DNA from: Bacillota bacterium
GTDB lineage: Bacteria > Bacillota > Clostridia > Peptostreptococcales > Anaerovoracaceae
Assembly: GCA_017433375.1 (NCBI GenBank)
Contig: JAFRHG010000021.1
Location: forward strand, 94,167 to 158,166
Direction of reading: 5' to 3'
Length of the DNA stretch: 64,000 bases
The translations under genes were made by a program, and so were the position numbers. Shown one piece after another: positions 4,760 to 61,432 of the stretch. How positions within the stretch are numbered: the first letter of the stretch is position 1; the number at the start of each line of letters is the position of its first letter. The notes under the pieces are model-generated. The model searched no databases. It saw nothing but the letters and a program-made list of their open reading frames with translations, and was not told the DNA's origin.

Positions 4760-7439
4760 ACCAGTTCCCGCCTTCGTTGAGGTCCGCTTTCAGCCGGACC
4801 TTCATCTCCACGGCGCCCTCCATCATGTCCACCAGCAGTTTTTCCACTGCAACCTTCTCTTCCTCCAGGGTATGGATGATCAGCTCATCGTGGATCTGCA
4901 GGATCAGTTTCGACCTTAGTCCCTGCTCCCGCAGGGCGTTATAGACCCTGATCATGGCGATCTTGATGATGTCCGCCGCGCTGCCCTGGATGGGCGAGTT
5001 CATGGCCAGCCGCTCGCCGATCTGCCGGACCACGAACTGGGTCGCCCGGATCTCCTTGATGTAGCGTTTGCGGCCGAACATGGTCTCCACGTAACCCTTG
5101 TCTTTGCAGAAGGCGACGGCCTCGTCCATGAAGGCCCGCACATTCTCATGCTTGGCGAAGTAGGCGTTGATGTATTCCTCCGCCTCCTTCCTGGTGATAT
5201 GCAGATTGCTGGACAGGCCGAAGGCGCTCATGCCGTAGATCACGCCGAAGTTGACCGCCTTGGCCCGGCTGCGCTCCTCAGGGGTGATGTCTTCCTCGGG
5301 GATGCCCAGCACGTTGGCCGCCGTGGCCCGGTGGATGTCCTCCCCCCGGTTGAAGGCGTCGATCAGGGCCGGATCGTCCGCCATATGGGCCAGCACCCGC
5401 AGCTCGATCTGGGAATAGTCCGCGCCCACCAGGGTATGTCCCCCGTCGGGGACGAAGGCCTTCCGCAGCTGCCGCCCCAGTTCCTGGCGGATGGGGATGT
5501 TCTGCAGGTTGGGCTCGATGCAGCTGATGCGGCCCGTCGCCGCCACCGTCTGCATGAAGTGGGCGTGGATCTTGCCGTCCCGGCTGTTGATCAGGGGGAT
5601 CAGCCCGTCCACATAGGTGCTCTTCAGCTTGGTCAGGGTCCGGTATTCCAGAATGGCCGGAACGATCTCGTGCTTATCCTCCAGCTTCTCCAGCACCTCG
5701 GCGCTGGTGGAGTAGCCCCTCTTGGTCTTTTTGCCGTGGGGCAGGCCCAGTTTTTCGAAGAGGATGGTTCCCAGCTGAATGGGAGAATTGATGTTGAATT
5801 CCTCGCCGGCCATCCCGCAGATGGTCTCCCTGAGCAGGTCGATCTGTCCCGCCAGTTCCTGCCCGAAATCGGCCAGGAACTCCCGGTCGGCCCGGAAGCC
5901 CTCATGCTCCATGGCGGCCATCACTTCGATCAGGGGAAGCTCGATCTCGTAGAGAACTTTCTCCATGCCGGCCTGGCGGATCTTATCCTCCTGCACCGCC
6001 CGCAGAGCCGTGACGGCGGCGCACCAGCGCAGGCCGTAATCGGCGTATTTCTCCGTATTTCCGCCCAGCAGGTCCATCTGGCCCACGGACTCGGCGAACT
6101 CCTTCTCCGAAGGGATGCCCTCCCCCAGTTCCTCGGCCGCCAGCAGAGGCAGGCTGTAGTCGCCTCGCCCCGAATCCAGCATGTAGGCCGCCACCTGGGT
6201 GTCAAAGGCAACCCCGAACCGCTCCATCCCCCGGCTCATCAGCATGAAGATATCCTTTTTGATATCGTGGCCGTACAGTTTCAGGCCCTGTTTGGCGAAC
6301 CAGTCAAAGAAGCCGGGCACAGCCGCCAGATCGACGTAATAGAAGGTGTTCCCGCACAGGAGGGCCGCGCCGTCCATCACCGGGTCATCCACGTGGTTGT
6401 TGTCTCCGAAGATCCGCAGGACGGCTTCCCCCTCGGGGTGGATGTCCTTGAGCTGGGTGTCCTCCCGGATGATCACCTGCTGGATGGCGGACAGATCCGG
6501 CATGCCTGCCACAGCGGGCGCGTCTTCCCCGGCCGGGGTTGCCTTTGCAGCGGCTGCCCCCTGCAGGCCGGTCAGATCCAGCTTCTTCAGGAAGCGGTTG
6601 AACTCCAGCTTCTGATAGATGGACACCAGCTGGGCCATGTCCGTCTCCCCGATCTTCCACTGCTCCTTGTCCTCGCCGCCGGGCAGGGGCACGGCCGTGT
6701 TGATGGTGGCCAGCCGCTTGCTCATCAGGGCCAGGGTATCGTTGTCCCGGATCTTTTTCTGCAGGCCGTCGGGCCTGATCTCATCCACGTGATCGACGAT
6801 CTCCTCCACGCTGCCGAACTGCTGGATCAGCTTCGTGGCCGTCTTGTCCCCCACGCCGGGGACGCCGGGAATGTTGTCCGATTTGTCGCCGGCCAGTCCC
6901 TTGAAGTCGATGAACTGGAGGGGCGTAAAGCCGTAGGCCTCCACGAAGGCGTCATGGTCGAAGATATCAAAATCGGAGACGCCCCGCTTGGTGAAGACCA
7001 CCCGCGTGGTGTCCGTAGCCAGCTGCAGCTGGTCCCGGTCGCCGGTAAAGATCACCGGCTCCAGCCCCTGCTTCTCCGCGGACCGGGCCACCGTGCCGAT
7101 GATATCGTCGGCTTCGAAACCCTCGATCTCCATCCGGGTGATGCCCATGGCATCCAGGATCTCCTTCAGCAGGGGGATCTGCATGGCCAGTTCCGGGGGC
7201 ATCTTCTTCCTGCCCGCCTTGTATTCGTCGTACTCCTCGTGGCGGAAGGTGGGCCCCTTTTTATCAAAGGCAACGACCATGTACTCCGGGCCGTAGTCCC
7301 GGCGCAGCTTGTCCAGCATATTCAAAAACCCGAAAATCCCGTGGGTGTAGATTCCGTCCCGGGTGATCATCGGGTTTCGCATGGCATAGTAGGCGCGGTT
7401 GATCAGACTGTTTCCGTCGATGATGGCAATGCGTTCCAT
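4746..7439 (-). CDS. polA: DNA polymerase I
   Basis: Repair and Okazaki-fragment processing polymerase, 897 residues. The N-terminal 5'-nuclease domain (about 1-290) begins with IAIIDGNSLINRAYYA. The middle domain (about 315-490) has the 3'-5' exonuclease fold, but the expected DxE metal-binding motif is not visible at its start (AVLRIFGDNN), so proofreading is probably lost, as in Bacillus and Taq enzymes. The polymerase domain (about 510-897) has motif A DYSQIELR (about 671), motif B around KAVNFGVIYGMSAFGL, and motif C QIHDELIIH (about 850). GAGGAGAG precedes the ATG. It lies 30 nt downstream of htpG and overlaps coaE. Confidence 0.97.
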   Translation of the reverse strand: MERIAIIDGNSLINRAYYAMRNPMITRDGIYTHGIFGFLNMLDKLRRDYGPEYMVVAFDKKGPTFRHEEYDEYKAGRKKMPPELAMQIPLLKEILDAMGITRMEIEGFEADDIIGTVARSAEKQGLEPVIFTGDRDQLQLATDTTRVVFTKRGVSDFDIFDHDAFVEAYGFTPLQFIDFKGLAGDKSDNIPGVPGVGDKTATKLIQQFGSVEEIVDHVDEIRPDGLQKKIRDNDTLALMSKRLATINTAVPLPGGEDKEQWKIGETDMAQLVSIYQKLEFNRFLKKLDLTGLQGAAAAKATPAGEDAPAVAGMPDLSAIQQVIIREDTQLKDIHPEGEAVLRIFGDNNHVDDPVMDGAALLCGNTFYYVDLAAVPGFFDWFAKQGLKLYGHDIKKDIFMLMSRGMERFGVAFDTQVAAYMLDSGRGDYSLPLLAAEELGEGIPSEKEFAESVGQMDLLGGNTEKYADYGLRWCAAVTALRAVQEDKIRQAGMEKVLYEIELPLIEVMAAMEHEGFRADREFLADFGQELAGQIDLLRETICGMAGEEFNINSPIQLGTILFEKLGLPHGKKTKRGYSTSAEVLEKLEDKHEIVPAILEYRTLTKLKSTYVDGLIPLINSRDGKIHAHFMQTVAATGRISCIEPNLQNIPIRQELGRQLRKAFVPDGGHTLVGADYSQIELRVLAHMADDPALIDAFNRGEDIHRATAANVLGIPEEDITPEERSRAKAVNFGVIYGMSAFGLSSNLHITRKEAEEYINAYFAKHENVRAFMDEAVAFCKDKGYVETMFGRKRYIKEIRATQFVVRQIGERLAMNSPIQGSAADIIKIAMIRVYNALREQGLRSKLILQIHDELIIHTLEEEKVAVEKLLVDMMEGAVEMKVRLKADLNEGGNWYELK
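6538..6548 (-). repeat. Dispersed 11-mer GCAAAGGCAAY, perfect copy
   Basis: GCAAAGGCAAC inside polA, read as codons for Ala-Lys-Ala-Thr in the linker between nuclease and exonuclease-like domains. Confidence 0.85.
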
Positions 7440-7469
7440 ACTCTCTCCTCTGTTCCGCGTTGATGCGGC

Positions 7470-9389
7470 TTATTTCGTCATCAGATCGCAGACCCGGTTG
7501 GAAAAGGCAACGGGGTCCTCTACGCTCAGCCCTTCGATGAGCAGCGCCTGGTCGTAGAGCAGCTGGGCGTAGGTCCTGACCTGTTCCTGATCCTCTCCGT
7601 AAGTTCGGATCAGCTTGTCCACGATGGGATGGGAGGCGTTGATCTCCAGCACCCGGTCCGCCTTGACCTTCTCCTCCATGGGCATGGCGTTGAGCACCTT
7701 TTCCATTTCGATGGAAAGACCTCCCCTGGATGTCAGGCAGACGGGGTGGGACTTCAGCCGGTGGCTCAGCCTAACCTCAGCTACCTTGTCCTCCAGGCAT
7801 TCCTTCAGGAAGTCAAGCACGGGACGGCTGTCCTCTTCCTTTTTTTCGGCTTCCTTCTTTTCCTCTTCCGTTTCCTCCAGCTCCAGATCGTCCGCGGATA
7901 CGGACTTGAAAGGCTTTTCCTCGAATTCGCCCAGGATCTGGATGGCGAACTCGTCGATATCGTCGGTCATGTAGAGGATCTCATATCCTCTGTCCTTCAG
8001 GACCTCCGTCTGGGGCATCCGGTCGATCTTCTCCACCGATTCGCCGCAGGCGTAATAGATGGCCTTCTGGTCTTCCTTCATCCGGCTCACGTACTCGGAC
8101 AGGGTGACCATGCCTTCCTCCGTGGAGGAATGGTAGATCAGCAGATCCTTCAGCTGGTCCTTGTTCATGCCGAAGCGGTCATAGACGCCGAACTTCAGCT
8201 GCAGGCCGAAGTGGCGGAAAAACTCCGTATACTTTTCCCGGTCCTGATGAAGCATCTCCAGCAGGTCGGCGTGGATCTTCTTTTCCAGCCGCTGGGCGAT
8301 GGCCTTCAGCTGGCGGTCATGCTGAAGCATTTCCCGGGAGATGTTCAGGGACAGGTCCTGGGAGTCCACCAGGCCCCGGACGAAGCTGTAGTGATCCGGC
8401 AGCAGATCCGGGCACTTCTCCATGATCATCACGCCGGAGGAATAGAGGGTCAGACCCTTCTCGAAGTCCTTGGAATAGTAGTCGAAGGGAGCCTGCCCCG
8501 GCACGAAGAGCAGGGCCGTATAGCTGACCACGCCCTCCACGTTGGTATGGATGACCCGGACCGGATCCGCCATGTCGTAGTATTTCTCTTTATAAAACCG
8601 GTTGTAGTCTTCGTCAGTCAGTTCGCTCTTGGGTTTCTTCCAGAGGGGAACCATGGAGTTCAGGGTCTCCAGTTCCTGATAGGTCTCATATTCCGGTGCC
8701 TTGTCCGGATCGGCCTCTTCCCCTTCGGGAATATCCTTCGGCCGTGACTTTTCCACCATCATCTGAATGGGATAGCGGATGTAGTCGGAATACTTCTTCA
8801 CCAGGCTCCGCAGGGTATAGTCCTCCAGGAAGCGGCTGTAGTTCTCCTCTTCCGTGTCCTCCTTAAGCTTGAGGATCACCTGGGTGCCCACATCATCCTT
8901 CTCCGCCTCTTTGATGGTATAGCCGTCGGCGCCGGAGGATTCCCAGATCCAGGCCTGTTCCTCCCCGTAGGCCCGGGAGATCACGCTGACCTTCTCGCTG
9001 ACCATGAAGGCGGAATAAAAGCCGACGCCGAACTGGCCGATGATGTCGATATCCCCTTCCTTCCCCGCTTCCATCTGGGACTTGAAATCCAGGGACCCGC
9101 TGCGGGCGATGGTGCCCAGATTCTTCTCCAGTTCCTCTTTATTCATGCCCATGCCGTTGTCGGTGATGGTCAGGGTTCCCGCCTCCTTATCCGGCTCCAG
9201 AAGGATCCGGAAACTGTCCCGGGAAAGCCCCGTCTTCCCTTCCGCCAGGCTCTGGTAATAGAGCTTGTCGATGGCATCGCTGCCATTGGAAATCAGCTCC
9301 CGCAGGAAGATTTCCTTATGGGTATAGATGGAGTTGATCATCAGGTCCAGAAGACGTTTTGATTCTGCTTTGAATTGTTTTTTTGCCAT
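7470..9389 (-). CDS. htpG: Molecular chaperone HtpG (Hsp90)
   Basis: ATP-dependent cytosolic Hsp90 homodimer assisting protein folding. 639 residues, normal length. The N-terminal GHKL ATPase domain shows the helix ELISNGSDAIDKL, TDNGMGM and the lid glycines GQFGVGFYSAFMV. Middle and C-terminal dimerisation domains follow, with an acidic EETEEEKKEAEKK linker near residues 505-517. GGAGG lies 10-11 nt before the ATG, and that spacer is one perfect copy of the dispersed 11-mer. No CIRCE element or clear promoter is seen. It may read through from the surface-protein gene 50 nt upstream or have a promoter inside it. Confidence 0.96.
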   Translation of the reverse strand: MAKKQFKAESKRLLDLMINSIYTHKEIFLRELISNGSDAIDKLYYQSLAEGKTGLSRDSFRILLEPDKEAGTLTITDNGMGMNKEELEKNLGTIARSGSLDFKSQMEAGKEGDIDIIGQFGVGFYSAFMVSEKVSVISRAYGEEQAWIWESSGADGYTIKEAEKDDVGTQVILKLKEDTEEENYSRFLEDYTLRSLVKKYSDYIRYPIQMMVEKSRPKDIPEGEEADPDKAPEYETYQELETLNSMVPLWKKPKSELTDEDYNRFYKEKYYDMADPVRVIHTNVEGVVSYTALLFVPGQAPFDYYSKDFEKGLTLYSSGVMIMEKCPDLLPDHYSFVRGLVDSQDLSLNISREMLQHDRQLKAIAQRLEKKIHADLLEMLHQDREKYTEFFRHFGLQLKFGVYDRFGMNKDQLKDLLIYHSSTEEGMVTLSEYVSRMKEDQKAIYYACGESVEKIDRMPQTEVLKDRGYEILYMTDDIDEFAIQILGEFEEKPFKSVSADDLELEETEEEKKEAEKKEEDSRPVLDFLKECLEDKVAEVRLSHRLKSHPVCLTSRGGLSIEMEKVLNAMPMEEKVKADRVLEINASHPIVDKLIRTYGEDQEQVRTYAQLLYDQALLIEGLSVEDPVAFSNRVCDLMTK

Positions 9390-9398
9390 TGCCTTTGC
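9388..9398 (-). repeat. Dispersed 11-mer at the htpG start
   Basis: GCAAAGGCAAT fills the space between the Shine-Dalgarno GGAGG and the htpG start; its last two bases are the first two of the ATG. Confidence 0.85.
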
Positions 9399-12400: not shown

Positions 12401-15400
12401 TCCGTGCCTCTTGGTCTGATCAGCCGGCAGTCCCGTGACGTCGCTTCCCGTCTCCGTATTTCCGTCGTACTTCACCGTATAATTTTTCTCCTGGCATACG
12501 GCTCTCACGGTGATGCTGCCTCCGCCGGCCGTTTCTGCAAAGACAAATCTGCCGTCACTGCTGGTGTCGCTGTTCACACTGTTCTCCCAGTGATCGGTGA
12601 CACAGCCCGCACCCGGGATTATCTGAGGCGGATCCGTTACCGCCAGATCAAATGTAGTCAGCCAGCCGTGGCCATCCGTCTGACAGATGTATTCGAAGGT
12701 CTTCTGTCCCGCCTTGATGCTGCCCCCGTCGACCTCGTAGTTCACCCTTACCTGGCAGGCATCGGGAATGCCGTCCGGCTCACTGCCGTCGGTTCCGCCG
12801 CCGACTTTATCCACATACATACCGGCATTCTGGTATTCCTGATAGCCGGCTAAAACGCCCTCGTATGGCAAGGTGATCGCCGCGGAGGCCGTCACATTAT
12901 CCGCTGAACCCACGGCTTCGGAATTCACCCGGTAATTGCTCTTGGTCGCGGGATGGTTTTTCGTGAACACATATCCGCCATCCACGTCCGGATTGGTGAA
13001 GCGGATGGTATAGTCCCCCGCATCCAGTCTGTTGGGATCAATGTTGGCCGTAGTGAAGGAGTATTTGCCGCCGGAGTCCGTCGTCTGTTCGCCGATCTGT
13101 TCCTCTTCGCTGTCATAGAGGCCGACGTTGACGCCGCCCATGGCCGCTTCCTTCTCCCTGTCCCAGAAACCGTCGCCGTTAATATCCTGGAAGACATATC
13201 CGCCGATGGAAGACACCGCCAGTCTGGCCGCCACATAATTGCCGTTCACCCAGACCGCTCCGATTCCGCCTTCCCGGTGATAGCGGGGCCGGAAGATGTT
13301 TTTCGTCAGGTTCAGCTGTGCCTGGGTCGCCTGGGTCTCCGTGGCGCCCACTTTCAGGGGAAGGACGAATTCAAATCCGCCTCCCGGCACCTTCAGGCCC
13401 TCTTTGGAGCTGATCTCCACCAGAACGACCCGGGAAAGCTGCTGTTCGGTCATGGACTGAGGGTTGACCAGGGTGCTCGTCCCGCTTGGCTCGCCGTTGG
13501 CGTCCAGGGTGACGGCATCCAGGTAATAGATGATATCGAAAATATCCTCATCCGCGTTTTCGATCATACCTCTGAGGGACATGGGCCACTGGTAACCGCT
13601 GAACTGATACCGCTGGAAGCTGTCATCCGTGTTGATGGCCGTAAATGTGCTGCCGTCGGCGCTGAAACTGCCGTTGGGTATGGGAATATAGGCGTTGACC
13701 GAACACTTATCCCCGATGCTGACCAGCGTATTGGAAACGATCACATGATAATCTGCGTTGGTCGCCGGCATAAACTCCACCACATTGACCTCGTTGGAGC
13801 CGTCGCTTCCGGGATCATAGGGATGCACGGCATCGCTTCCTCCCTCCTGGGTCAGATAGCCGGATACGGTGATGTTCATATTGGTCAGAACGGTCACTCT
13901 CTCGGCGGAGGCGGAAATCACGTTAGTTTCCGTGCGGTTCCGGTTTCCGTTCATATCCCAGGTATCTACGTGGGTGGACACGTTATTGGCACCCTTGATG
14001 GGAAGGAACTCCTCCGTTTCCAGGTTGCCTTTGCCTGCCATCAGGTAATCGCCCAGATCGAAGGTGGACGTCTCCGCTGTTTCCGAAACGACGAGTTCGT
14101 AGTCAAAGACCAGGGATGTATTGTAATGTCCCGCCCATGAGTATTGCTTGTCATCCTTGAAGGAACCGGTCGCGGATCCGGGTACGTAGAACTCATAGAC
14201 CTGATAATAACCACCGCTGGCATCCCGCACGTAGCCGGAGGAACTGACCAGCTGGTCGGTGAGATCCACGGGAGGCTTGATCGGGTTGGCGGAATTGCTG
14301 GTGGTGATGTAATCATGAACCGTTACGCTGGCCGGATCGAAAGTCATATCCTTGGGAACGACAAGATAGAAACGGGGTTCCCCCGTAGATGTCAGATAGT
14401 TGCCCCCGACACCGAGCTTGCTTCTGGCGTAAATGGTATCCCCCGCCTTGAAACTGGCGGACTCCGTTGTTCTGGAGGCGTTGCTGTACGTGGTGTCGTC
14501 GATATTCAGACAGGCGAACTCCCCGTCCGGATCATAATCCACAGTCAGCGTCTGAGGATCTGCCCGGTTTATCTTGAAGGTAAAGGGAATGGTTGCCGGT
14601 ACGCCCGCATCCACGACGGCCTGACTGAAATAGCCTACCGGTCTGCCGTACCAGGTACCGGTAGAGAAAGCCTCACCGAAGGTCCCGCAGTCCGCAGTGA
14701 TAGACCGGATATACTTCGCCCCTGCCGGAACCTCCGTCCTGTCCCTCAGGGCGGCGGTGTTGACGTAGCAGATCTTCTGGGTTGTGGTGAATTCCAGATC
14801 AGGAGTGATCGTCGTCCCGTCGTCAAAGGTAACCGATTTGACGGCGATCTTTTTGCTGTCCGTCGGGAAGAATACTCCGATCACATCCAGGGTATTCTCT
14901 GCGAAGGACCAGGTGGCGATCTGGTTATCCGTCTGCGCGTTGGATGTATAGAAATTACTGAGTTTGCCGAAAATGGAGGGGTAGTCCTCGGGGAACTGGG
15001 TGAATGCCGTATTGCCTGCATAATCAGCGATCCGAACCACATCCTGGGCTTCCGCGATCTCTACGTAATTTGTCGACAGGGAAACGAAATCGTCGGGATA
15101 GGCGTAGGATGCCGTGCCGCCGTCATAGGTTGAGGTATAGTCAAAGCGGATCGGTGTGTTGGCGGCAGCGTAGCTGCCAGGACGCGCATCATCGGCGATA
15201 TCCCCGTATATGCTGTAGTAAAAGCGGCCGTTGCCGGACAGCTCAACATTCCGGATGGTCAGGGTGTTGTTCCCGGAATCAAAGGATAACTGCTCTGTAG
15301 GGATCTCATCCCCTGTACCGGCGGAAACGACCCTCGTCACCGCGCTTACGCACGTGGGGATCCCCAGGGTAACATCGGCCGTTCCCTGGGGGAGCGATCT

Positions 15401-17223: not shown

Positions 17224-18441
17224 TTACCGGGACAGGGCGATGGTCTGGGGGCTTTCGGTTTTCTGACTGTAGTATTCCTCCCCGATCAGGCCCTTATCGA
17301 TGCCGCCCTTGTAGGGGTCCGCCTCGCCGGCCCATCCCAGGGGATGCACGCCGTCAGCGCTGTAGCGGGTCAGATCCATCCGATCGGGCCAGATCTCGCA
17401 GACCGTAGCCGTCAGGGTCTCATCGGCGGCCCTGTATTTATCCAGATCGCCCGCCTCCAGTTCCTCCGGGCCGCAGTTCATATAAAAGCCCGCATATCCC
17501 GCGTTCAGATAAGTGAAGTTGAGGGTCTCCTCGGTAAAGCGGTCCGTAGTCCGGTCATTTTCACTGAACTGGGGAATCAGGATCTTGTCTCCCACCCCCT
17601 TGTACACGCTGCTTCCGCCCAGATAGCAGTCCCAGCCCTTGGAGTGATTGTGGCCGAACAAAAAGACGATGTTCAGGTCCTTCGCCGCCTCGTTGACCAC
17701 GTTATAGAGAATCGAGGAATAGAGATTGTCCCCCGTGGTATGGCGGGAAGATGTACGGGCCGTGTAGTGAAGGGGAACGTGGCCGGCAATGAATACAGGC
17801 CGTTTCTCCCCCTTCCCGATCAGCTGGTCGAAGCAGGCCTTCATGACCTCTGAAGCCTGTCTGACCTTGTCCAGGCATCCCCTTTCCTTGCCCTGCTTCC
17901 AGGGGAAGTCATTCTCCGTATTGAGGACGTAGACCAGGTATTCCCCGCAGTCGTGGAGGCCGGTCTCGGCGATGGATTCCGTCAGTTTGTCGTGGTTGCC
18001 CTGATTGAATAAGGCGGCTCCCTCGTCCACATCCGGACAGTTTTCGTGAATCACCTTCCTGGCCTGGGCGATGGTATCCTCCGGGCTGATCTGGTAGTCG
18101 TGGAGATGGCGGTCGTTGGTGTAATCCCCGCAGATCACCACGCCGTCCGGGCTCTTTCCGTCGGCCTGTATGGCCCGCAGGATCGCCGCCAGGTTGTCCG
18201 CCGGCTCGCCCCAGCCCTCTTCCTTCTGCAGGTCCGAAGCGAAGACCACCGTCGCCAGGGGCTTATCCCTGTCCGCAGCCGTGCTTTCCTCCGTCGCCGC
18301 CGTCGTCTCCGCCGGCGCCGCGGTTGTGGTCTCCCCCTCGGGGCTGCCTTTGCCGCAGGCGGTCAGGGCCAGTGCAAAGGCAATCAGAAGCAGGATGAAC
18401 AGTGCCCTATTGCTGTTGCTCTTTTTTCTCATTGGCTTCAT
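17224..18441 (-). CDS. Calcineurin-like metallophosphatase lipoprotein
   Basis: Predicted extracellular, lipid-anchored phosphoesterase. 405 residues from the start chosen here. A lipoprotein signal peptide ends in the lipobox LTAC (Cys about 29), followed by a Thr/Ala/Glu-rich linker. The metal-binding blocks are FASDLQ, VICGDYTND, NQGNHDK, FIAGHVPLHY and FGHNHSKG, i.e. the D-x-D/GD/GNH/GH-x-H set with Gln-Gln-like variation in the first block. It overlaps the end of the upstream GDPD-like gene. An alternative ATG at 18468 has a weak AAGGG upstream, so the start is uncertain. The pairing suggests joint breakdown of extracellular phosphoesters; the substrate is unknown. Confidence 0.82.
   Translation of the reverse strand: MKPMRKKSNSNRALFILLLIAFALALTACGKGSPEGETTTAAPAETTAATEESTAADRDKPLATVVFASDLQKEEGWGEPADNLAAILRAIQADGKSPDGVVICGDYTNDRHLHDYQISPEDTIAQARKVIHENCPDVDEGAALFNQGNHDKLTESIAETGLHDCGEYLVYVLNTENDFPWKQGKERGCLDKVRQASEVMKACFDQLIGKGEKRPVFIAGHVPLHYTARTSSRHTTGDNLYSSILYNVVNEAAKDLNIVFLFGHNHSKGWDCYLGGSSVYKGVGDKILIPQFSENDRTTDRFTEETLNFTYLNAGYAGFYMNCGPEELEAGDLDKYRAADETLTATVCEIWPDRMDLTRYSADGVHPLGWAGEADPYKGGIDKGLIGEEYYSQKTESPQTIALSR
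18374..18384 (+). repeat. Dispersed 11-mer GCAAAGGCAAY, perfect copy
   Basis: GCAAAGGCAAT on the plus strand, antisense to the lipoprotein signal peptide where it is read as Ile-Ala-Phe-Ala. Confidence 0.85.
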
Positions 18442-24380: not shown

Positions 24381-24391
24381 GCAAAGGCAAC
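24381..24391 (+). repeat. Dispersed 11-mer, intergenic copy
   Basis: GCAAAGGCAAC in the 75-bp gap between the convergent Cys-rich gene and MATE gene. Confidence 0.85.
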
Positions 24392-30260: not shown

Positions 30261-30306
30261 ATGTAAGGATTTGCTCAAAATGTCAGACGACTTGATACAA
30301 AGGCAA

Positions 30307-30900: not shown

Positions 30901-30919
30901 CGGTTCATCGCTCCTTCCG

Positions 30920-30941: not shown

Positions 30942-30950
30942 AAATCTATC

Positions 30951-46696: not shown

Positions 46697-47689
46697 AGCG
46701 GGCAGAGCCTCGGCGATATCCATGGAGGTCATGCCGATCTCCCCCTTTTCCCGGGCGGCCAGATCCCCGGCCAGTCCGTGGATATAGACGGCGGCCCGCA
46801 CGCAGCTTTCCGGCGTCAGTCCCAGGTCTTCCGTCCTCCGGCCCGCCTTTCCCCAGGCCAGAAGGGCCGCGGTCACACCGGTGAGCACATCACCGCTTCC
46901 GCCGGTGGCCATTCCCGGATTGCCCGTGGGGTTTTCAACGATATCCGCTTCGGTCATGGAAGGCGCCGCGCCGGCCGCGTTAGCGTTGGCCGCGGCGATC
47001 AGGGTGTCCTGTCCCTTCAGGACGATGATGGCTCCCGTTTCCTCCGCCAGGATCCGGGCGCTGGCTTCCCTGCCGAAGGAACGGGTATTCTCCTTGCCCA
47101 GCATGGCCAGAAGCCTGTCCGCTTCCCCGGGATGGGGCGTGAGCACCACCGGCTCTTTGCGCTTCTTCCCGATATCCGGCAGGATGCTGGTCTGCTTTCT
47201 CGGCACCTTCAGCTCATCCAGGGGCGCCGTATCCATATAGCTCTCCCTCGTGGGCGCCATGCCGTAGCGGCACAGGGAATTGATCCCGTCGGCGTCGATC
47301 ACCAGAGGGCCGTGATAGCCCAGCAGGAGATGCTCGATCATCCGGTACTGTTCCTCTCCCTCGCCCAGTCCCGGTCCGATGGCGATGGCGTCGAAACGGT
47401 CCGGGTCCGTCAGGGCAGCGGCCCGTTCCATGCACATGGCTTCAGGCACCGCCGTCTGCAGAATGGGAAAGAGCTCTTCCGGCAGGGCGACCGTCACCAG
47501 GCCCGCCCCGCTTCTCAGGGCTGCCCGGGCGCAGAGCACCGCCGCTCCGGCCATCCCCCGGGATCCGCAGATCAGAAGCACTCTCCCGCAGCGTCCCTTG
47601 TGGATGTCCGCCGGACGGGGGGTGATCATATCCTTTATTTCTGCTTCCGTGATGACACGGATCTCCGTTGCCTTTGCATTATCCGCCAT
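46670..47689 (-). CDS. nnrD: ADP-dependent NAD(P)H-hydrate dehydratase
   Basis: Repairs hydrated NAD(P)H using ADP. 339 residues; only the C-terminal YjeF (dehydratase) domain is present, without an epimerase domain. LLICGSRGMAGAAVL, IGPGLGEGEE, LTPHPGEADRLL and GMATGGSGDVLTG are family signatures. An extra loop of about 30 residues rich in charged residues (around TAPLDELKVPRKQTS) separates strands near residue 155. The second of two ATGs (47689) is chosen because AGGAGG stands 5 nt before it. It lies between mgtE and the transketolase genes. Confidence 0.9.
   Translation of the reverse strand: MADNAKATEIRVITEAEIKDMITPRPADIHKGRCGRVLLICGSRGMAGAAVLCARAALRSGAGLVTVALPEELFPILQTAVPEAMCMERAAALTDPDRFDAIAIGPGLGEGEEQYRMIEHLLLGYHGPLVIDADGINSLCRYGMAPTRESYMDTAPLDELKVPRKQTSILPDIGKKRKEPVVLTPHPGEADRLLAMLGKENTRSFGREASARILAEETGAIIVLKGQDTLIAAANANAAGAAPSMTEADIVENPTGNPGMATGGSGDVLTGVTAALLAWGKAGRRTEDLGLTPESCVRAAVYIHGLAGDLAAREKGEIGMTSMDIAEALPAAFREIAGR
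47667..47677 (-). repeat. Dispersed 11-mer GCAAAGGCAAY, perfect copy
   Basis: GCAAAGGCAAC near the start of nnrD, read as Ala-Lys-Ala-Thr. Confidence 0.85.
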
Positions 47690-47698
47690 CATATCCTC

Positions 47699-49171: not shown

Positions 49172-50896
49172 CTACACCTTCAGCATGGCGCTGCCGGCTG
49201 CCTCGATCTTCGCCAGCCGCTCCTCCGCCTCTTCGGCCTTCGCGCCCCTGGCCATGATGTAGAATTTGATCTTCGGTTCCGTCCCCGAGGGCCGGATGAT
49301 GGCGGTGCAGCTTTCCGCCAGTTCATAGAAGAGGATGTTGCTTTTGGGAAGGCCCGTGGGCTCCTTGGCACCGCCTGCGCAGTCCACGATCTCCCCGGAC
49401 TGGTAATCCCGGATCCTCTCCACCCCGAGGCCGACCTCAGCCGGCGGCTGCCTGCGCATCTTCTCCATGATCTCGCTCATCTTCGCCTGTCCGTCCAGTC
49501 CTTCGAAGACGAAGGAAACCACCTTCTCCCGGTACTGTCCGTAGGTCTCATAGAGGCCGTCCATGGCATCCTGCAGCGTCTTGCCCTGCAGGTGGTAGTA
49601 ACAGGCCATCTCCGCGATCAGCATGGAAGCCAGCACCGCGTCCTTGTCCCTGGCGTAGGTTCCCGCCAGATACCCGTTGCTCTCCTCAAAGCCGAAGATA
49701 AAGGTATGCTCGCCGGTCGCCTCGTATTCCTTGATCTTTTCACCGATGTACTTGAATCCGGTCAGCACGTTGGCGACGGAAATGCCCTGCTCCGCGCAGA
49801 TCCGGTCCGCCATGGTCGTGGAGACGATGCTCTTCACCGCGATGGCGTTTTCGGGCAGGCTCCCCTGCTCCTTTCTGGCACGGATCAGATAATCCAAAAG
49901 CAATACCCCGATCTGGTTGCCCGTCAGGGTCCTGTATTCGTTGCCTTTGCGGACCACGATGCCGCAGCGGTCGCCGTCCGGGTCCGTTCCGATGATCAGG
50001 TCAACGTTCTCCTTCTCCGCCATGTCGATGGCGATGGCAAAGCCTTCCCGATACTCGGGGTTGGGCGACTTGACCGTGGGGAAGTCCCCGTCGATCACCA
50101 TCTGCTCGGGCACCGTGATCACGTGCTTCATGCCGAGCCGTTTGAGCACTTCCGGCACCAGTTTGTAACCCGTCCCGTGGAAAGGCGTATAGATAATCTT
50201 CAGTTCGTCGGCCGCCTGCTCCACGTAGGGGGCGCCAACCGACTGCTCCATCACGTGGGCCAGGTAGTCCTCGTCCATCTCCTGCCCCAGCATCCGGATA
50301 AGGCCCTTTTCCACGGCCTGTTTCCGGTCCATGGTCTTCACGCCGGTGAAAATGTCCGTCTTATCCATTTCCCCGGCGATCCGCCCGGCCAGATCCGCCG
50401 CGATCTGGGCGCCGTCGGCCCAGTAGGCTTTGAATCCGTTGTATTCCTTCGTGTTGTGGCTGGCGGTGATGTTGATGCCGGCAATGGATCCGGTCTGCCG
50501 AAGGGCAAAAGACAACTCCGGCGTAGGCCGAAGGGACTCGAAGAGATTGACCCTAATCCCGTTGGCCGCCAGCACACAGGCTGACTCGCCGGCGAAGAGT
50601 TCGCTGTTGTTGCGGGAATCGTAGGCAATGGTCACGCCCTTCTCCTGCCCCGACTCTTCGATGATGACATTGGCCATGGCCTGGGCCGCCAGGCGCACCG
50701 TATAGATGTTCATTCCGTTCAGGCCCATGCGCATGATTCCGCGCAGGCCGGCGGTGCCGAATTTCAGCATCTGGGCGAACCGTTCCCGGATTTCCTTTTC
50801 GTCCTGTTCGATCCCGGCCAGTTCCGCTTTTGCCGCCTCATCCAGGGCCTCGCTGTCCATCCATTTTTTGTATTGTTCAATGATCTGTTTTTCCAT
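49172..50896 (-). CDS. pgcA: Phosphoglucomutase / phosphomannomutase (alpha-D-phosphohexomutase)
   Basis: 574 residues, four-domain phosphohexomutase. The phosphoserine loop reads NITASHNTKEYNG, the metal loop DPDGDRCG, the sugar loop GFEESNGYL, and the phosphate-binding loop RPSGTEPKIKFYI. The length and GTAGLRGIMRMG motif match PgcA of Bacillus, which makes glucose-1-phosphate for wall polymers. It is first in the long minus run towards ctpA, with 63 bp before mgtE. Confidence 0.93.
   Translation of the reverse strand: MEKQIIEQYKKWMDSEALDEAAKAELAGIEQDEKEIRERFAQMLKFGTAGLRGIMRMGLNGMNIYTVRLAAQAMANVIIEESGQEKGVTIAYDSRNNSELFAGESACVLAANGIRVNLFESLRPTPELSFALRQTGSIAGINITASHNTKEYNGFKAYWADGAQIAADLAGRIAGEMDKTDIFTGVKTMDRKQAVEKGLIRMLGQEMDEDYLAHVMEQSVGAPYVEQAADELKIIYTPFHGTGYKLVPEVLKRLGMKHVITVPEQMVIDGDFPTVKSPNPEYREGFAIAIDMAEKENVDLIIGTDPDGDRCGIVVRKGNEYRTLTGNQIGVLLLDYLIRARKEQGSLPENAIAVKSIVSTTMADRICAEQGISVANVLTGFKYIGEKIKEYEATGEHTFIFGFEESNGYLAGTYARDKDAVLASMLIAEMACYYHLQGKTLQDAMDGLYETYGQYREKVVSFVFEGLDGQAKMSEIMEKMRRQPPAEVGLGVERIRDYQSGEIVDCAGGAKEPTGLPKSNILFYELAESCTAIIRPSGTEPKIKFYIMARGAKAEEAEERLAKIEAAGSAMLKV
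49940..49950 (-). repeat. Dispersed 11-mer GCAAAGGCAAY, perfect copy
   Basis: GCAAAGGCAAC in pgcA, read as part of Arg-Lys-Gly-Asn. Confidence 0.85.
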
Positions 50897-52441: not shown

Positions 52442-52498
52442 ATCCACACTCCTGATCCAAAGGCAACGAATGCCGGTCACCCGGCTAATCCAGCCACC

Positions 52499-53033: not shown

Positions 53034-54212
53034 TTACCATCCTTCCTTGCCGGTGATCGGCGATAGTTTTCGCAGAGTGTCCACAACCTTCTGCAGGACC
53101 TCTACGGTGTAGTCGATATCTTCTTTTGTCGTGAAGTCCCCCACGGTGAACCGGACGGTTCCGTTGATGATCGTCATGGGGACGTTGATTGCCGCAAGCA
53201 CGTGGGAAATATCCAATGATCCCGATGAGCAGGCGGATCCGGTGGATACGCAGATCCCGCCGCCGTCCAGCATCAGCATGATGGACTCCCCTTCGATGTA
53301 ACGGAACGAGACGTTCAGGTTGCCCGGATGCCGGCGGTCGAAGTCCGCCGGGCCGTTGAGCCGTACATCTTCGATCTTATCCTGGATCTGATCCCAGAGA
53401 TACTGGCGCATCTGCCGGGAGTGGGCCATGTGCTCAGCGAGGCCTGTCCTGGCCAGTTCCGCCGCCTTGCCGAAACCGACGATGCCGGCGGTGTTCTCCG
53501 TCCCTGCCCTCTTCCGGTTTTCCTGGGCTCCGCCGTGGACGAAGTTGGGCAGCATGATGCCTTTTCTCTTGTACAGGGCGCCGATGCCCTTGGGTCCGTA
53601 GATCTTATGGGCCGACATGGACAGGAAGTCCACGTCCAGATCCTTCACGTCGATGGGCACATTGCCCAGGGCCTGCACCGCGTCGGTGTGGAAGAGGACG
53701 CCGTGCTTTTTCGCCACGGCAGCCAGTTCCTTGATGGGCTCCAGGGTGCCGATCTCGTTATTGATCATCATGATGCTGACCAGAATGGTCTTGTCCGTGA
53801 TGGCCGCTTCCAGATCTTCCGGGGAAACGAATCCCTCTTCATCCACATCCAGATAGGTCACCTCGATGCCGTGATACTTCTGCAGATACATGCAGGTATG
53901 GATGATGGCGTGGTGCTCGATCTTGGTGGTAATGATGTGGTTGCCTTTGTCCCTGAGCTGGTCGGCGACGCCCTCCAGAACCCAGTTGTCCGCCTCGGTT
54001 CCGCAGGAAGTGAAGAAGATCTCATTCTCCTTCGCCCCGATCAGATCCGCCACCTGCTGACGGGCCTGGGTAAGGCCTTCCTTCGCCTTCAGGCCGGGGC
54101 CGTAGAGGCTGGACGGATTGCCGAAAGCCTCTGTATAATACGGGATCATCTCGCTCACGACTTCCTGTTTTACCGGTGTCGTCGCGGAATAATCCAGATA
54201 TACTTCTCTCAT
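53034..54212 (-). CDS. Cysteine desulfurase (NifS/IscS type)
   Basis: PLP enzyme that takes sulfur from cysteine for Fe-S assembly. 392 residues from the ATG at 54212 (GGAG 10 nt before it). The N-terminal VYLDYSATTPV, the PLP Lys in SMSAHKIYGPKGIG and the catalytic Cys in STGSACSSGSLD are visible. Its end overlaps the first codons of an alternative nifU start. The promoter region contains the palindrome CACTATATAGTG. Confidence 0.95.
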   Translation of the reverse strand: MREVYLDYSATTPVKQEVVSEMIPYYTEAFGNPSSLYGPGLKAKEGLTQARQQVADLIGAKENEIFFTSCGTEADNWVLEGVADQLRDKGNHIITTKIEHHAIIHTCMYLQKYHGIEVTYLDVDEEGFVSPEDLEAAITDKTILVSIMMINNEIGTLEPIKELAAVAKKHGVLFHTDAVQALGNVPIDVKDLDVDFLSMSAHKIYGPKGIGALYKRKGIMLPNFVHGGAQENRKRAGTENTAGIVGFGKAAELARTGLAEHMAHSRQMRQYLWDQIQDKIEDVRLNGPADFDRRHPGNLNVSFRYIEGESIMLMLDGGGICVSTGSACSSGSLDISHVLAAINVPMTIINGTVRFTVGDFTTKEDIDYTVEVLQKVVDTLRKLSPITGKEGW

Positions 54213-55316: not shown

Positions 55317-56300
55317 TCAGGCGTCCGCCCAGGCCAGCAGCTCTTCCCGCTCCCGCAGCAGCGTATCCAATATGTATCCCGAATTCAGCCGAAAGGCTTC
55401 CTTCGGCTGTTCCATTGCTTTTGCCGGTGTCCAGTACCGCTCGATGTAGGCGTCCAGCATGGCCTCCCGGTCGAGGCCCTCCCGGCACATCCCGTCAACA
55501 AAGCGGGTCTTGCTTTTGCACTCTTCCCGGAACATCTCCCAGTACCGGTCAGTGTAGTCCCCGGGGACCATGCCGAAATGGGGAAGGCACAGATACCGGG
55601 GGTTCGCTGCCCGGCATTTGGGCATGGACACGTTCACCGCCTGCACGAAACTCTTCAGGCAGGGCGTGTGGACATAGTCCTTCCCTTCCAGGATCCCGGT
55701 GCTTTCGCTGGTGAACAGGATCCCGGCGGGCTGGAGACAGTAGCTCATGGAGCAGTCCGTATGCCCCGGCGTGGCCAGGGCAGTCACCTTCTCCTCCCCC
55801 AGGGAAACGGTCTCGCCGTCCTCAATGATCCGGTCCACGGCCAGTCCTTCGGTGATGATCTCCACCGGGCTGTCCGGCGCGTAAAGGTCCTTCGCCTCCT
55901 GGCCGAGAGCGCCCATAAGTTTCCGGGCGTTGGGCCGGGACAGGATCCCCGCGCAGTGGCGGCTGGCCAGCACCTGCGCCCCGGGAAAGGCCTTTTTCAG
56001 CCAGGGCAGCGCGCCGATGTGGTCGTAGTGGGAATGGCTCAGAAAGATCATGTCCAGATCCCTGCCCATCCCGGCCAGCACCTTCTTCGCGTTGTCCGCC
56101 GTCGTCGGCCCGCAGTAGGCCATGCCGCAGTCCAGCAGGGCCGTTTTCTCGCTGCCGCAGATCAGCAGCGCCTCCCCGCCGTGGCCTCCCGTGACCCGGC
56201 AAACGGGCCCGGGGAAATCGAACCGGTCAAAGCCCGGCCCGAAAGTCTGAAACAGATCCACATCCTCCGGCAGATCCGGCCGCTCAATGGGTCCACTCAT
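55317..56300 (-). CDS. MBL-fold metallo-hydrolase
   Basis: 327 residues from the ATG at 56300 (GGAGAAG before it). It overlaps the upstream gene by 17 nt. The long frame open upstream is shadow. The metal motif is LSHSHYDHIGA, with later ATPGHTDCSMSY and LPHFG, the glyoxalase-II-like order. Eight or more Cys are scattered through the sequence. No signal peptide. The substrate is unknown. Confidence 0.85.
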   Translation of the reverse strand: MSGPIERPDLPEDVDLFQTFGPGFDRFDFPGPVCRVTGGHGGEALLICGSEKTALLDCGMAYCGPTTADNAKKVLAGMGRDLDMIFLSHSHYDHIGALPWLKKAFPGAQVLASRHCAGILSRPNARKLMGALGQEAKDLYAPDSPVEIITEGLAVDRIIEDGETVSLGEEKVTALATPGHTDCSMSYCLQPAGILFTSESTGILEGKDYVHTPCLKSFVQAVNVSMPKCRAANPRYLCLPHFGMVPGDYTDRYWEMFREECKSKTRFVDGMCREGLDREAMLDAYIERYWTPAKAMEQPKEAFRLNSGYILDTLLREREELLAWADA

Positions 56301-56907
56301 CGTCTTCTCCGTCATCCAGGGCATAGTCGTCCACCGTCTCCGGGTCAAACACGATCCGCCCCTCGTTCTCATCGTCCTCGATTTCCGCCGCCGCAAGCTC
56401 GGCGAAGGACATGGTATATCCGTCCAGCTGGTAGTCCAGCGCGTAGTCAAAATCGTACCGGTACTTCTCCCCGCCCAGCTTTTCCATCCGGGCCGTGGTG
56501 ATGGCGTCCCGCAGACACTGGTGCAAAGGCAATCCCCCGTCCATGGGCGAAAGCTCCGCATCGGAATCCTCCACATACCATTGCCGGAACCGGCAGAACT
56601 CGTCGGTCAGCCGGCGGATATCGCTTTCGTCCTCCGCGTTGCGGGCCAGGCCCACAAGGCAGAGACGTATCTGGTTCAGCAGGGAGTAGATCTCCCCGCT
56701 GTCCTCGGGAAGACCATCCATAATATCGTCGAAATAGTCCCCGAACAGGTCCGCCACCGTGGGCATATCCGCGCCGGCAAAGAGCGCTCCTACAGCTTCC
56801 TGCTCGATGTGTTCATCGCATTCCACCAGATCGGCCATGGCCTCAAAGTAGATGAAGTCAGCCGGCTCCTCCAGATCCAGATGCTTCAGCAGCTCATAGT
56901 AGTCCAT
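56284..56907 (-). CDS. Acidic hypothetical protein, 207 residues
   Basis: Not recognised. It has a strongly acidic helical composition, with blocks such as EDDENEG and DDGEDDEW near the C-terminus. No membrane helix or signal. It overlaps murI by 14 nt and the MBL gene by 17 nt, so it is embedded in a compact translation-coupled run. A homolog search is needed to say whether it is a widespread family. Confidence 0.75.
   Translation of the reverse strand: MDYYELLKHLDLEEPADFIYFEAMADLVECDEHIEQEAVGALFAGADMPTVADLFGDYFDDIMDGLPEDSGEIYSLLNQIRLCLVGLARNAEDESDIRRLTDEFCRFRQWYVEDSDAELSPMDGGLPLHQCLRDAITTARMEKLGGEKYRYDFDYALDYQLDGYTMSFAELAAAEIEDDENEGRIVFDPETVDDYALDDGEDDEWTH
56523..56533 (+). repeat. Dispersed 11-mer GCAAAGGCAAY, perfect copy
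   Basis: GCAAAGGCAAT antisense to the acidic hypothetical gene, read as Leu-Pro-Leu, yet another codon phase. Confidence 0.85.
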
Positions 56908-57827: not shown

Positions 57828-59630
57828 ATGGCAGCGAAAGAACCGAAAACCAGAGCACAGATGGACCCCGCTTACCAGTGGAATATCCAGGCAATGCTCC
57901 CCGATGAGTCCGTCATCGACGGCCAGCTTGAGCAGATCAAAGAGGAAGCCGGCCGCTTTGCCGACACCTACCGGGGATACCTGACCGACGACGGCCAGAC
58001 CCTGCTCGCCGCCTTCCGGGAGCGGGACGATATCTGGCGCCGGCTGGAGAACATCTACGTCTACGCCCACATGAAGCGGGACGAGGACAACGCGGTCAGC
58101 CGCTACCAGGCCCTGACCGACCAGTGCATGTCCGTCATCGCCGCTGTCTCCGCCGCCATGTCCTTCATCTCCCCGGAACTGCTTTCGGCCGATGAAGAGA
58201 AGGTTCTCGGCTTCCTGAAGACCACCGAAGGCCTGGACATCTACGATTTCGCCATCCGGGACGCCTTCCGCCTGAAGGATCACGTCCTCACCGACAGCGA
58301 AGAGGCCATCATGGCCCAGATGGGCGAGGTCACCGGCGCGACAAATGACGTCTTCACCATGCTCAACAACGCGGACCTGGCCTTCGAATCCGTCAAAGGG
58401 CAAGACGGAGAGGAGCACCTCCTCACCCACGGCAGCTACATCAAGCTGATGGAGAGCCCCGACCGGACCCTGCGCAAGGCGGCTTACGAGTCCATGTACG
58501 ATTCCTATAAGAAGCTGATCAACACCATCGCCACGGCCTACAATTACAACACCAAAACCGACGTGGTGAACGCCCGGATCCGACGTTACGGCTCCTCCCG
58601 GGAGGCCGCCCTGGCCGGAGACAACATCCCCGGGGAGGTTTACGATAATCTTGTTTCTGTCGTCAATAAGCACCTGCCCTCCCTCCACCGCTATGTGGCC
58701 CTGAAGAAGAAGCTTCTGGGCGTGGAGGACTTCCATATGTACGACATGTACGTTCCCCTGGTGGAGCTGCCCCCGCGGACCGTTGCCTTTGCAGAAGGCC
58801 TGGACATCATGCGGGCGGCCTTAAAGCCCTTCGGCGAGGACTACCTGAACAAGATGAACGAAGGCATCGAACAGGGCTGGATCGACGTCTACGAGAACAA
58901 AGGCAAGACCAGCGGCGCCTACAGCTTCGGCTCCTACGACAGCTACCCCTACATCCTGCTCAACTACACGGATACCCTCAAGGACGTGTTCACCATCATC
59001 CACGAAATGGGCCATTCCATGCACTCCCGCTACACCCGGGAGGCCCAGCCCTTCATCTACGGCAGCCACTCCATCTTCACGGCGGAGGTGGCCTCCACGG
59101 TGAACGAATCCCTGCTCATGCACCATCTGCTGGAGGAAACCGACGATCTCCAGATGCGTCGCTACCTGCTGAACATGCATCTGGAAGAGTTCCGGACCAC
59201 CCTCTTCCGGCAGACTCAGTTCGCCGAATTTGAGGACATGACTCACCGCTTCATCGAGGAAGGCGGTCAGCTGACGGCGGAGTGGATGAACGAGGAATAC
59301 CGCAAACTCAACGAAAAATACTACGGACCGGCGGTGGAGGCGGACGGCATCATCGACTTCGAATGGGCCCGCATCCCCCACTTTTACAACGCTTTCTACG
59401 TGTACAAATACGCCACGGGCTACTCGGCGGCAACCGCCATCTCGGCGAAGATCCTGGCCGAGGGCGAGCCGGCGGCGGCCCGGTACATCGATTTCCTGAA
59501 GACCGGCGAATCGGACCATCCCATTGAGCTTCTGAAGATCGCCGGCGTGGACATGAGCCGTCCCGAGCCTGTGGAAAAGGCAATGCTTGCCTTTGAGCAG
59601 ATCCTGGACGAATTCGAAGCTCTGCAGTAA
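57828..59630 (+). CDS. pepF: Oligoendopeptidase F (M3B)
   Basis: Zinc peptidase for oligopeptides, 600 residues. The zinc motif HEMGH lies in FTIIHEMGHSMHSRYT (about residue 390), with the third ligand Glu in FTAEVASTVNE. GCGGAGGAAAACC-type Shine-Dalgarno precedes the ATG. First of a plus-strand set with nadK and rluA. Together with the M29 aminopeptidase and gdhA it fits an amino-acid-using anaerobe. Confidence 0.95.
   Translation: MAAKEPKTRAQMDPAYQWNIQAMLPDESVIDGQLEQIKEEAGRFADTYRGYLTDDGQTLLAAFRERDDIWRRLENIYVYAHMKRDEDNAVSRYQALTDQCMSVIAAVSAAMSFISPELLSADEEKVLGFLKTTEGLDIYDFAIRDAFRLKDHVLTDSEEAIMAQMGEVTGATNDVFTMLNNADLAFESVKGQDGEEHLLTHGSYIKLMESPDRTLRKAAYESMYDSYKKLINTIATAYNYNTKTDVVNARIRRYGSSREAALAGDNIPGEVYDNLVSVVNKHLPSLHRYVALKKKLLGVEDFHMYDMYVPLVELPPRTVAFAEGLDIMRAALKPFGEDYLNKMNEGIEQGWIDVYENKGKTSGAYSFGSYDSYPYILLNYTDTLKDVFTIIHEMGHSMHSRYTREAQPFIYGSHSIFTAEVASTVNESLLMHHLLEETDDLQMRRYLLNMHLEEFRTTLFRQTQFAEFEDMTHRFIEEGGQLTAEWMNEEYRKLNEKYYGPAVEADGIIDFEWARIPHFYNAFYVYKYATGYSAATAISAKILAEGEPAAARYIDFLKTGESDHPIELLKIAGVDMSRPEPVEKAMLAFEQILDEFEALQ
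58782..58792 (-). repeat. Dispersed 11-mer GCAAAGGCAAY, perfect copy
   Basis: The plus strand reads GTTGCCTTTGC in pepF, encoding Val-Ala-Phe-Ala. Confidence 0.85.
59576..59594. repeat. Inverted pair of the dispersed word inside pepF
   Basis: AAAGGCAA, three bases TGC, TTGCCTTT: perfect 8-bp arms near the end of pepF. Confidence 0.8.
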
Positions 59631-61384: not shown

Positions 61385-61391
61385 TTCCGCG

Positions 61392-61432
61392 TCCGTCACA
61401 GAGGCGGAATTGCCTTTGCCCCCCCTGACGGA
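61392..61432. terminator. Hairpin carrying the dispersed 11-mer between rluA and rrf2
   Basis: Outer stem TCCGTCA/TGACGGA and inner stem CAGAGGC/GCCTTTG around loop GGAATT, with a bulge of C residues. It lies between two convergent stop codons, so it may end transcription, although no T-run is seen. Confidence 0.5.
61409..61419 (-). repeat. Dispersed 11-mer, intergenic copy
   Basis: Perfect copy inside the convergent hairpin. Its plus-strand flank GGCGGA is identical to that of the 30931 copy. Confidence 0.85.

Follow-up and report, generated by a model that had tools for sequence, protein, structure and literature searches.

Why should one short word recur on both strands, in genes and between them, along a stretch of clostridial DNA? 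The stretch, hereafter the window, is the whole piece of 64,000 nucleotides that was analyzed, from contig JAFRHG010000021.1 (positions 94,167 to 158,166) of the Bacillota bacterium assembly GCA_017433375.1. The word is GCAAAGGCAAY, which is not palindromic. A preliminary description of the window had likened it to a DNA uptake sequence in a Firmicute. Our results support this as the best reading, although they do not prove it: the word is probably an uptake sequence for self-DNA, with an independent origin in Clostridia. Of the marks by which an uptake sequence can be recognized at sequence level, all those that we tested were found except inverted pairing. They are genome-wide abundance, strand symmetry, constraint at the level of DNA, a halo of one-off variants, restriction to a lineage, and dialects that have a fixed core and follow the ComEC tree.

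In such a system, a surface receptor of naturally competent cells would prefer DNA tagged as its own kind. A pilus of the type IV superfamily would carry the receptor, which would read the core together with a species-specific tail, and the bound DNA would be pulled to the membrane and enter through ComEC. Recombination of tagged fragments would restore broken copies and fix new ones. The tag would spread by molecular drive, and each species would drift to its own dialect. The candidate filaments in the genome of origin would be those of a type IV pilus locus and a Tad (tight adherence) pilus locus.

Abundance of the word in the window and in the genome

All 16 perfect copies described earlier are present in the window, against a mean of 0.05 and a maximum of 2 in 100 dinucleotide shuffles; for two of them the coordinate first given was an end (sites 23863-23873 and 28001-28011). 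When one mismatch was allowed, 35 matches were found, 19 of them one-off copies (15 already listed), compared with 1.4 expected for perfect and one-off copies together. A recount also gave T directly 5′ of GC in 10 of the 16 perfect copies, as before.

The genome of origin (G000; 1,953,975 bases in 38 contigs, 89% complete) has 426 copies, 211 forward and 215 reverse, dispersed across many contigs at about one per 4.6 kb. The word read backwards occurs 5 times. The nine-base CAAAGGCAA occurs 789 times, against 38 for its reverse. In a 454-kb sample, made up of the window and further stretches of this genome, there were 176 copies of CAAAGGCAA, compared with 2.6 expected under a third-order Markov model. 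The preliminary description had been prepared to give up the idea if the count lay near expectation or the copies were confined; the count was far from expectation and the copies widespread. A single gene family or repeat element could be rejected as the source, because the flanks of the copies are unrelated except for a preference for T before and C or G after. For CAAAGGCAA the favoured flanks in the sample were T-G before and Y-S after, with little preference further out.

The perfect copies in the window are as follows (ORF, open reading frame; the sign is the strand).

6538..6548, −: GCAAAGGCAAC, inside ORF 4746-7439 (−)
9388..9398, −: GCAAAGGCAAT, just upstream of the start of ORF 7470-9389 (−), with a two-base overlap
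14024..14034, −: GCAAAGGCAAC, inside ORF 9440-16099 (−)
18374..18384, +: GCAAAGGCAAT, outside called genes but overlapped by an alternative ORF, 17224-18468
23863..23873, −: GCAAAGGCAAC, outside called genes
24381..24391, +: GCAAAGGCAAC, outside called genes
28001..28011, −: GCAAAGGCAAT, inside ORF 25880-28027 (−)
30931..30941, −: GCAAAGGCAAT, near the 5′ end of ORF 30864-32123 (+; start uncertain); an inverted GCCTTTGC nearby makes a loose hairpin
33381..33391, +: GCAAAGGCAAT, inside ORF 33249-34565 (−)
37148..37158, +: GCAAAGGCAAC, inside ORF 37000-37458 (−)
45193..45203, −: GCAAAGGCAAC, inside ORF 44806-45744 (−)
47667..47677, −: GCAAAGGCAAC, inside ORF 46670-47692 (−)
49940..49950, −: GCAAAGGCAAC, inside ORF 49172-50896 (−)
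56523..56533, +: GCAAAGGCAAT, inside ORF 56284-56907 (−)
58782..58792, −: GCAAAGGCAAC, inside ORF 57828-59630 (+)
61409..61419, −: GCAAAGGCAAT, between ORFs 60458-61384 and 61447-61884

The one-off copies are the following.

1445..1455, +: GCAAAGACAAC, mismatch at position 7, a weaker candidate
1949..1959, −: GTAAAGGCAAT
6202..6212, +: TCAAAGGCAAC
7264..7274, +: TCAAAGGCAAC
7501..7511, +: GAAAAGGCAAC
18343..18353, −: GCAAAGGCAGC, inverted to the word at 18374, 31 bp away
21660..21670, −: GAAAAGGCAAC
30297..30307, +: ACAAAGGCAAT
35044..35054, −: TCAAAGGCAAC
41249..41259, +: CCAAAGGCAAT
41921..41931, −: CCAAAGGCAAC
44478..44488, +: GCAAAAGCAAC, the tolerated G-to-A at position 6
52457..52467, +: CCAAAGGCAAC
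53940..53950, −: ACAAAGGCAAC
55414..55424, −: GCAAAAGCAAT
59574..59584, +: GAAAAGGCAAT
63498..63508, +: GCAAAAGCAAT
63544..63554, +: TCAAAGGCAAC
63939..63949, +: GCAAAAGCAAC

Constraint on DNA and tolerance of mismatches

Genes in the 454-kb sample were called with an in-house caller based on codon usage, not a standard tool, which gave 308 genes and 89.5% coding sequence. Among the 90 perfect words in the sample, 73 are in genes (38 sense, 35 antisense), 14 are intergenic and 3 lie across a gene boundary. The coding copies fall in several frames on both strands, and the readings AKAT, GKGN, VAFA or IAFA, CLC and LPL, first noted in the window, recur. When synonymous codons were shuffled within genes (40 rounds), the 73 coding copies fell to a mean of 2.3. 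This supports the earlier suggestion that selection acts on DNA rather than on protein, and a peptide or codon origin of the word can be rejected.

A codon, peptide or mutational bias without function would nevertheless find some support in the preferred reading frames (AKAT, VAFA) and in several genomes outside the genus where CAAAGGCAA is more frequent than its reverse, for example 62 vs 8 and 113 vs 37 (among the genomes of 45 of 80 loci). Since synonymous shuffling removes nearly all copies, since copies occur in several frames, on both strands and also between genes, and since the reversed word is not enriched, we consider such a bias highly improbable.

The claim that the intergenic copies are far above the intergenic share was less well supported. 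In the window, 4 of the 16 are outside called genes; in the sample, 14 of 90 copies (plus the 3 at boundaries) compare with about 10.5% non-coding sequence, an apparent excess of roughly 1.5-fold.

One-off variants of the ten-base form GCAAAGGCAA are also in excess in the sample, with 209 observed and 22 expected. Most of them (151 of 209) differ at positions 1, 2 or 6 of the ten, and positions 3, 4 and 8 are near expectation. At position 6, 26 of the 27 variants are G to A. Judged from the sequence, this halo has the form typical of a binding site whose tolerance is graded, one that would be maintained by a process that also sees near misses.

The graded tolerance bears on another explanation, that the word marks DNA for modification or for self/non-self defence. 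Lineage-specific words could follow the specificity of a methyltransferase. Usual modification sites are, however, shorter than the present 10-11 bp, and this word is asymmetric, with a tolerance that is graded by position. A comparable case would be HIP1 (highly iterated palindrome), which has 5648 copies in the cyanobacterium Synechocystis and contains a methyltransferase site (PMC1939737); HIP1 is palindromic whereas our word is not. We regard a modification mark as improbable.

Two other words, AGGAACTG and GGAACTGG, were also over-represented in the sample of this genome (window and L031-L050), with 92 of 100 and 86 of 104 coding copies, respectively, in the sense orientation and a single frame, at about twice the expectation from synonymous shuffles. 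They may reflect codon-pair bias or a strand-biased site. The word CCAGTTCC was also enriched, in pooled loci from other genera.

Orientation and spacing

In the 454-kb sample, 260 of the 308 genes follow the local majority strand and the GC skew agrees, so that the direction of replication can be read in the sampled contigs. Against this proxy, the word was oriented 48:42 (11-mer, p 0.60) and its nine-base form 96:80 (p 0.26). The strand bias that the preliminary description had proposed to look for was thus absent, which argues against the recombination and segregation sites it had offered as alternatives. Chi, KOPS (FtsK-orienting polar sequences) and similar oriented sites can be rejected by this comparison with the genes (260:48).

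A Chi-like site would tell the AddAB/RecBCD-type end-resection enzyme of the genus to stop and load RecA. The dispersal of the word at about one per 4.6 kb would suit such a role, and Chi words are likewise short, frequent and lineage-specific. Chi sites are, however, oriented with replication and strand-biased, and this word is not, in contigs where genes and GC skew do show a direction. To our knowledge, species-level dialects of 10-12 bp have not been described for Chi. A Chi-like function is therefore improbable. Escherichia coli has 1008 copies of Chi (PMC1939737).

Spacing of the nine-base form in the sample was near random, with a mean gap of 2.5 kb and 7 gaps longer than 10 kb compared with 3.4 expected. 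Such spacing, the genome-wide spread and the occurrence both in genes and between them could also be reconciled with a site that organizes the nucleoid, segregates the chromosome or anchors it to the membrane, for example a site of a Noc-like or H-NS-like protein. The word is, however, non-palindromic and without orientation bias in the sampled contigs. Its spelling also changes among congeners, and no known drive would replace hundreds of structural sites in each species. We judge a structural site about as improbable as a Chi-like one.

Distribution in the genus, family and class

In a search of named genomes with a ComEC profile, the relatives among the best 80 of 318 matches bore the labels Clostridiales Family XIII, Anaerovorax, Hornefia, Emergencia and Mogibacterium, and nearer ones were metagenome-assembled genomes such as 'Firmicutes bacterium UBA1191'. 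These relatives place the genome in the Anaerovoracaceae (Clostridiales Family XIII), a family name that we take to cover them; the genus is presumably the one named after UBA1191.

Among 49 genomes of this genus, 23 have CAAAGGCAA at 60 per Mb or more and at least three times as often as its reverse. In 33 of the 49, the shared core GCAAAGGC has a density above 210 per Mb, a cut-off that was set after the highest value outside the genus (202) had been seen; genome sizes of the relatives were rounded, so that densities carry an error of a few per cent. Five more of the 49 pass a looser test for a second dialect, GCAAAGSGCR: three strongly (202 vs 3, 169 vs 4 and 157 vs 4) and two weakly (218 vs 56 and 74 vs 17). 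The three strong genomes have only a background level of the first word. By these tests, neither word is enriched in 11 of the 49, among which G215 is borderline. The G+C content in samples from this one genus varies widely, from about 41% to 58%.

Outside the genus, 273 genomes of the family were counted, and in none did the core exceed 210 per Mb; the top value, read by eye, was 202 per Mb. In a class sample of 291 genomes (which includes the genome of origin and five of the family), the maximum apart from the genome of origin was about 166 per Mb, again by eye. The 11-mer reached at most 22 copies, a maximum read by eye, in any of 192 genomes of the family outside the genus. Eight genomes from other genera, each screened over a single 20-kb stretch, had no comparable word, which is weak evidence from such short stretches.

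Dialects and conservation of sites

The spellings preferred in different genomes were obtained by ranking words by their excess over a third-order Markov model, in samples of differing size; those of G213, G232 and G203 were small (20-24 kb), and G220 was covered by counting alone. By this ranking, samples of G190 (119 kb) and G068 (73 kb) had no standout word. The dialects are listed below.

Genome of origin: GCAAAGGCAAY
G208: TGCAAAGGCTGG
G238: YGCAAAGGCTGG
G226: GCAAAGGCWGG
G232: GCAAAGGCAGG
G216: GCAAARGCTAC
G217: GCAAAGGCW
G210: CGCAAAGGCY
G199, G203, G225, G228, G211 and G213: GCAAARGCAR, often with T before
G127 and G162: TGCAAAGSGCR, in a separate clade

Thus at least six spellings occur within one genus around a common core, GCAAARGC, which is GCAAAGSGC in one clade. 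In a quick ComEC tree of 40 rows, the three strong genomes of the second dialect formed one supported group with G236, with G190 adjoining, and this group was apart from the carriers of GCAAARGC. The genome of origin and S3M_St_8 (G224) were sisters.

Core words were shared at matching places between species more often than permuted words. When six genomes were aligned at one locus, the partner had an intact GCAAAGGCA in 30 of 63 pairwise comparisons and an intact GCAAAAGCA in 16 of 35, compared with 104 of 715 for permuted words (the comparisons overlap). Ten species pairs were compared over comEC, pilus-ATPase and a small number of further stretches; core words were kept at 86 of 179 sites against 1114 of 4588 for permuted words, each site being counted from both sides. 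Five of the pairs were below p 0.05 on their own, two of them below 1e-6. In the syntenic comparison of G225 with G228, where just 12 kb could be aligned, too little for a clear result, GCAAAGGCA was kept at 2 of 3 sites and GCAAAAGCA at 0 of 3. Conservation at orthologous sites, a check proposed with the original observation, was therefore seen overall and in half of the pairs; the pairs that lacked it are taken up below.

Candidate uptake machinery

Of the genes that the preliminary description had proposed to look for, comEC and those of a type IV pilus are present in the genome of origin, which also has a Tad locus. Its ComEC is intact (806 aa), and ComEC was matched in 40 of the 49 genomes of the genus. 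Within the comEC ORF, at positions 5516-5535 of contig C10 (L031), lies a 20-bp palindrome, GTTGCCTTTGCAAAGGCAAC, that consists of two overlapping head-to-head words.

The type IV pilus locus is one gene run with an N_methyl pilin, pilB, pilT, pilC, a prepilin peptidase and pilM, and two proteins occupy the places of pilN and pilO. Beyond this run come a giant surface protein and then two proteins with N_methyl matches below the cut-off. The giant protein, repetitive and roughly 4500 aa long (L036:19018 to L037:12610, contig C3), thus sits between the pilus operon and more pilin-like genes, and its gene overlaps the longest word-free gap of that contig. A strong PilB-type match was found in only 4 of the 49 genomes (G000, G224, G200 and G219).

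The Tad locus encodes, above the cut-off, a CpaF-type T2SSE protein, two T2SSF proteins and a Flp1-like pilin, and in addition a TadE-like protein (below the cut-off) and a 252-aa pilin-like protein. T2SSE matches that we read as CpaF (frames of about 300-540 aa, profile start at 4-8) occur in 43 of the 49 genomes.

A third, small cluster (L179:3154-7913, contig C7; also L193, L194 and L198) encodes a secreted protein and small membrane proteins, with a PilT-like ATPase and one protein that is T2SSF-like, a label read from its sequence. This mini-operon occurs in the genome of origin and in the relatives looked at (G199, G203 and G225) and looks like a minimal type IV filament system. It could be rejected as the common machine, because several word-bearing genomes, including G127, G162, G220, G205, G214 and G233, had no PilT-like T2SSE match.

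A ComEA-sized frame was found in 43 of the 49 genomes, as read from frame lengths (a second, longer protein, of about 755 aa, is likewise matched by the HHH_3 profile). The genome of origin and G224 had no HHH_3 match of any kind, neither the ComEA-sized frame nor the ~755-aa protein of most congeners. ComEA is unlikely as the specificity factor for all species, as these two word-rich genomes have no match.

A candidate receptor in the Tad locus

The pilin-like protein of the Tad locus has a feature that makes it a receptor candidate only:

L048:1210-1965 (contig C8 of the genome of origin), −: 252-aa TadE-type Tad pilin with two tandem His-Cys/Cys-x-x-Cys zinc-type motifs

The motifs, of the form H...C...C..C, are at its end (His166, Cys170, Cys193, Cys196; His218, Cys222, Cys245, Cys248), and both are invariant in seven species. 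Against Pfam nothing passed the cut-off; TadE matched weakly (5 of 7 members, best E 0.0034), as did the Ada zinc domain (3 of 7, best E 0.055). Ada-like zinc domains bind DNA. The profile of the pilin gave nothing useful against PDB (best E 0.21) and no match in NCBIfam.

The same profile matched 145 of 158 genomes of the family, and the pilin is present in the Tad locus of the word-free G068 as well as of word-bearing species. The pilin was therefore rejected as a presence/absence marker of the word; its presence alone cannot explain which genomes have the word, and the specificity would lie in the pilin sequence. On this proposal, the Tad pilus would carry the receptor of a sequence-specific clostridial uptake system that evolved independently of Proteobacteria, the TadE-type pilin, with the two zinc-type motifs at its outer end, would read GCAAARGC and a tail, and changes in the pilin would set the dialect. 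We offer it tentatively and think it unlikely as it stands.

Evidence against an uptake sequence

Several observations weigh against reading the word as an uptake sequence. The first concern the sites. Closely spaced inverted pairs, which are common for the DNA uptake sequence (DUS) of Neisseriaceae and the uptake signal sequence (USS) of Pasteurellaceae, where they act as terminators, although they are not required for uptake, were rare; the 454-kb sample had a single tight pair and three that were loose. Five of the ten species pairs did not pass p 0.05 in the conservation test, and between the genome of origin and its sister G224 none of 5 core sites and 2 of 8 sites of CAAAGGCAA were kept. 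Forward and reverse counts of the core were unequal (p<0.05) in 6 of the 33 core-rich genomes (G203, G202, G225, G201, G221 and G216); contig orientation could explain this. Enrichment of the second dialect was weak in G236 and G219, and a 122-kb sample of G236 had no standout word.

Matches to the machinery are also missing in places. The nine genomes without a ComEC match include the word-rich G204, G206, G207, G227 and G237 (68-81% complete). An HHH_3 (ComEA) match is absent from the genome of origin (89% complete) and from its nearest relative G224, and four further genomes lack the ComEA-sized frame: G232 and G238, which are word-rich, G215 and G198. None of the pilus genes taken singly follows the distribution of the word. 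The literature consulted gave no report of competence or DNA uptake in a word-bearing species; the named carriers are metagenome-assembled genomes.

Comparison with known systems

DUS occurs on both strands and in all gene contexts. In the accessible part of PMC3630211, DUS is a word of 10-12 bp at very high copy, with dialects that have an invariant core and are congruent with phylogeny, as here. The core there has CTG, here GCAAARGC. The DUS dialects reach 2245-5918 copies in the part of the source available, compared with the lower density of 426 perfect 11-mers here, and their hosts are Gram-negative Betaproteobacteria, in contrast to Clostridia with few inverted pairs.

USS of Pasteurellaceae resembles the present word in its 9-10 bp, its hundreds of copies or more, its over-represented mismatched forms and its slightly different spellings among species (accessible parts of PMC1939737 and PMC1852404). 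The motif and the phylum are different, and the spellings here are more numerous inside a single genus. Terminators are a frequent arrangement of USS pairs (PMC1852404), whereas the word here rarely pairs.

For uptake through Tad pili, Micrococcus luteus and Liberibacter crescens are comparable in having ComEC and a Tad locus. Transformation of M. luteus requires Tad/Flp pili (PMC6370729), and in L. crescens DNA uptake was lowered by mutation of the Tad motor (PMC8513845); the accessible parts of these two papers do not mention an uptake sequence. A role of Tad in uptake would be our extrapolation here, where the genome has a type IV pilus locus as well. Veillonella parvula is a Firmicute reported to prefer its own genomic DNA, but in the two genomes screened no sequence of at least 10 bp was present at 100 copies or more and no uptake sequence was identified, as far as the available text of PMC5397411 goes.

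Nearly all competent species except Neisseria and Haemophilus are described as taking up DNA regardless of sequence (PMC12040237, in part). Sequence-dependent uptake is called an exception, and uptake sequences are described from two Gram-negative families, in the accessible parts of PMC12040237, PMC12236230 and PMC1939737. For Clostridia, no published uptake sequence came up in a search that covered the top-ranked titles and few subscription journals, so that absence from print is unproven.

Implications

If experiments bear it out, this would be the first uptake sequence in this branch of life. Such an independent clostridial origin would serve as a natural replicate in the old debate over how these tags come about, whether by receptor bias and drive or by selection for recombining with one's own kind. 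The series of dialects would offer a direct route to the receptor, which should be the protein that varies in step with the word's tail. Tagged DNA might also make word-bearing organisms transformable. In these mostly uncultured gut and rumen bacteria, species tags would gate genetic exchange, and the tags could be read from metagenomes.

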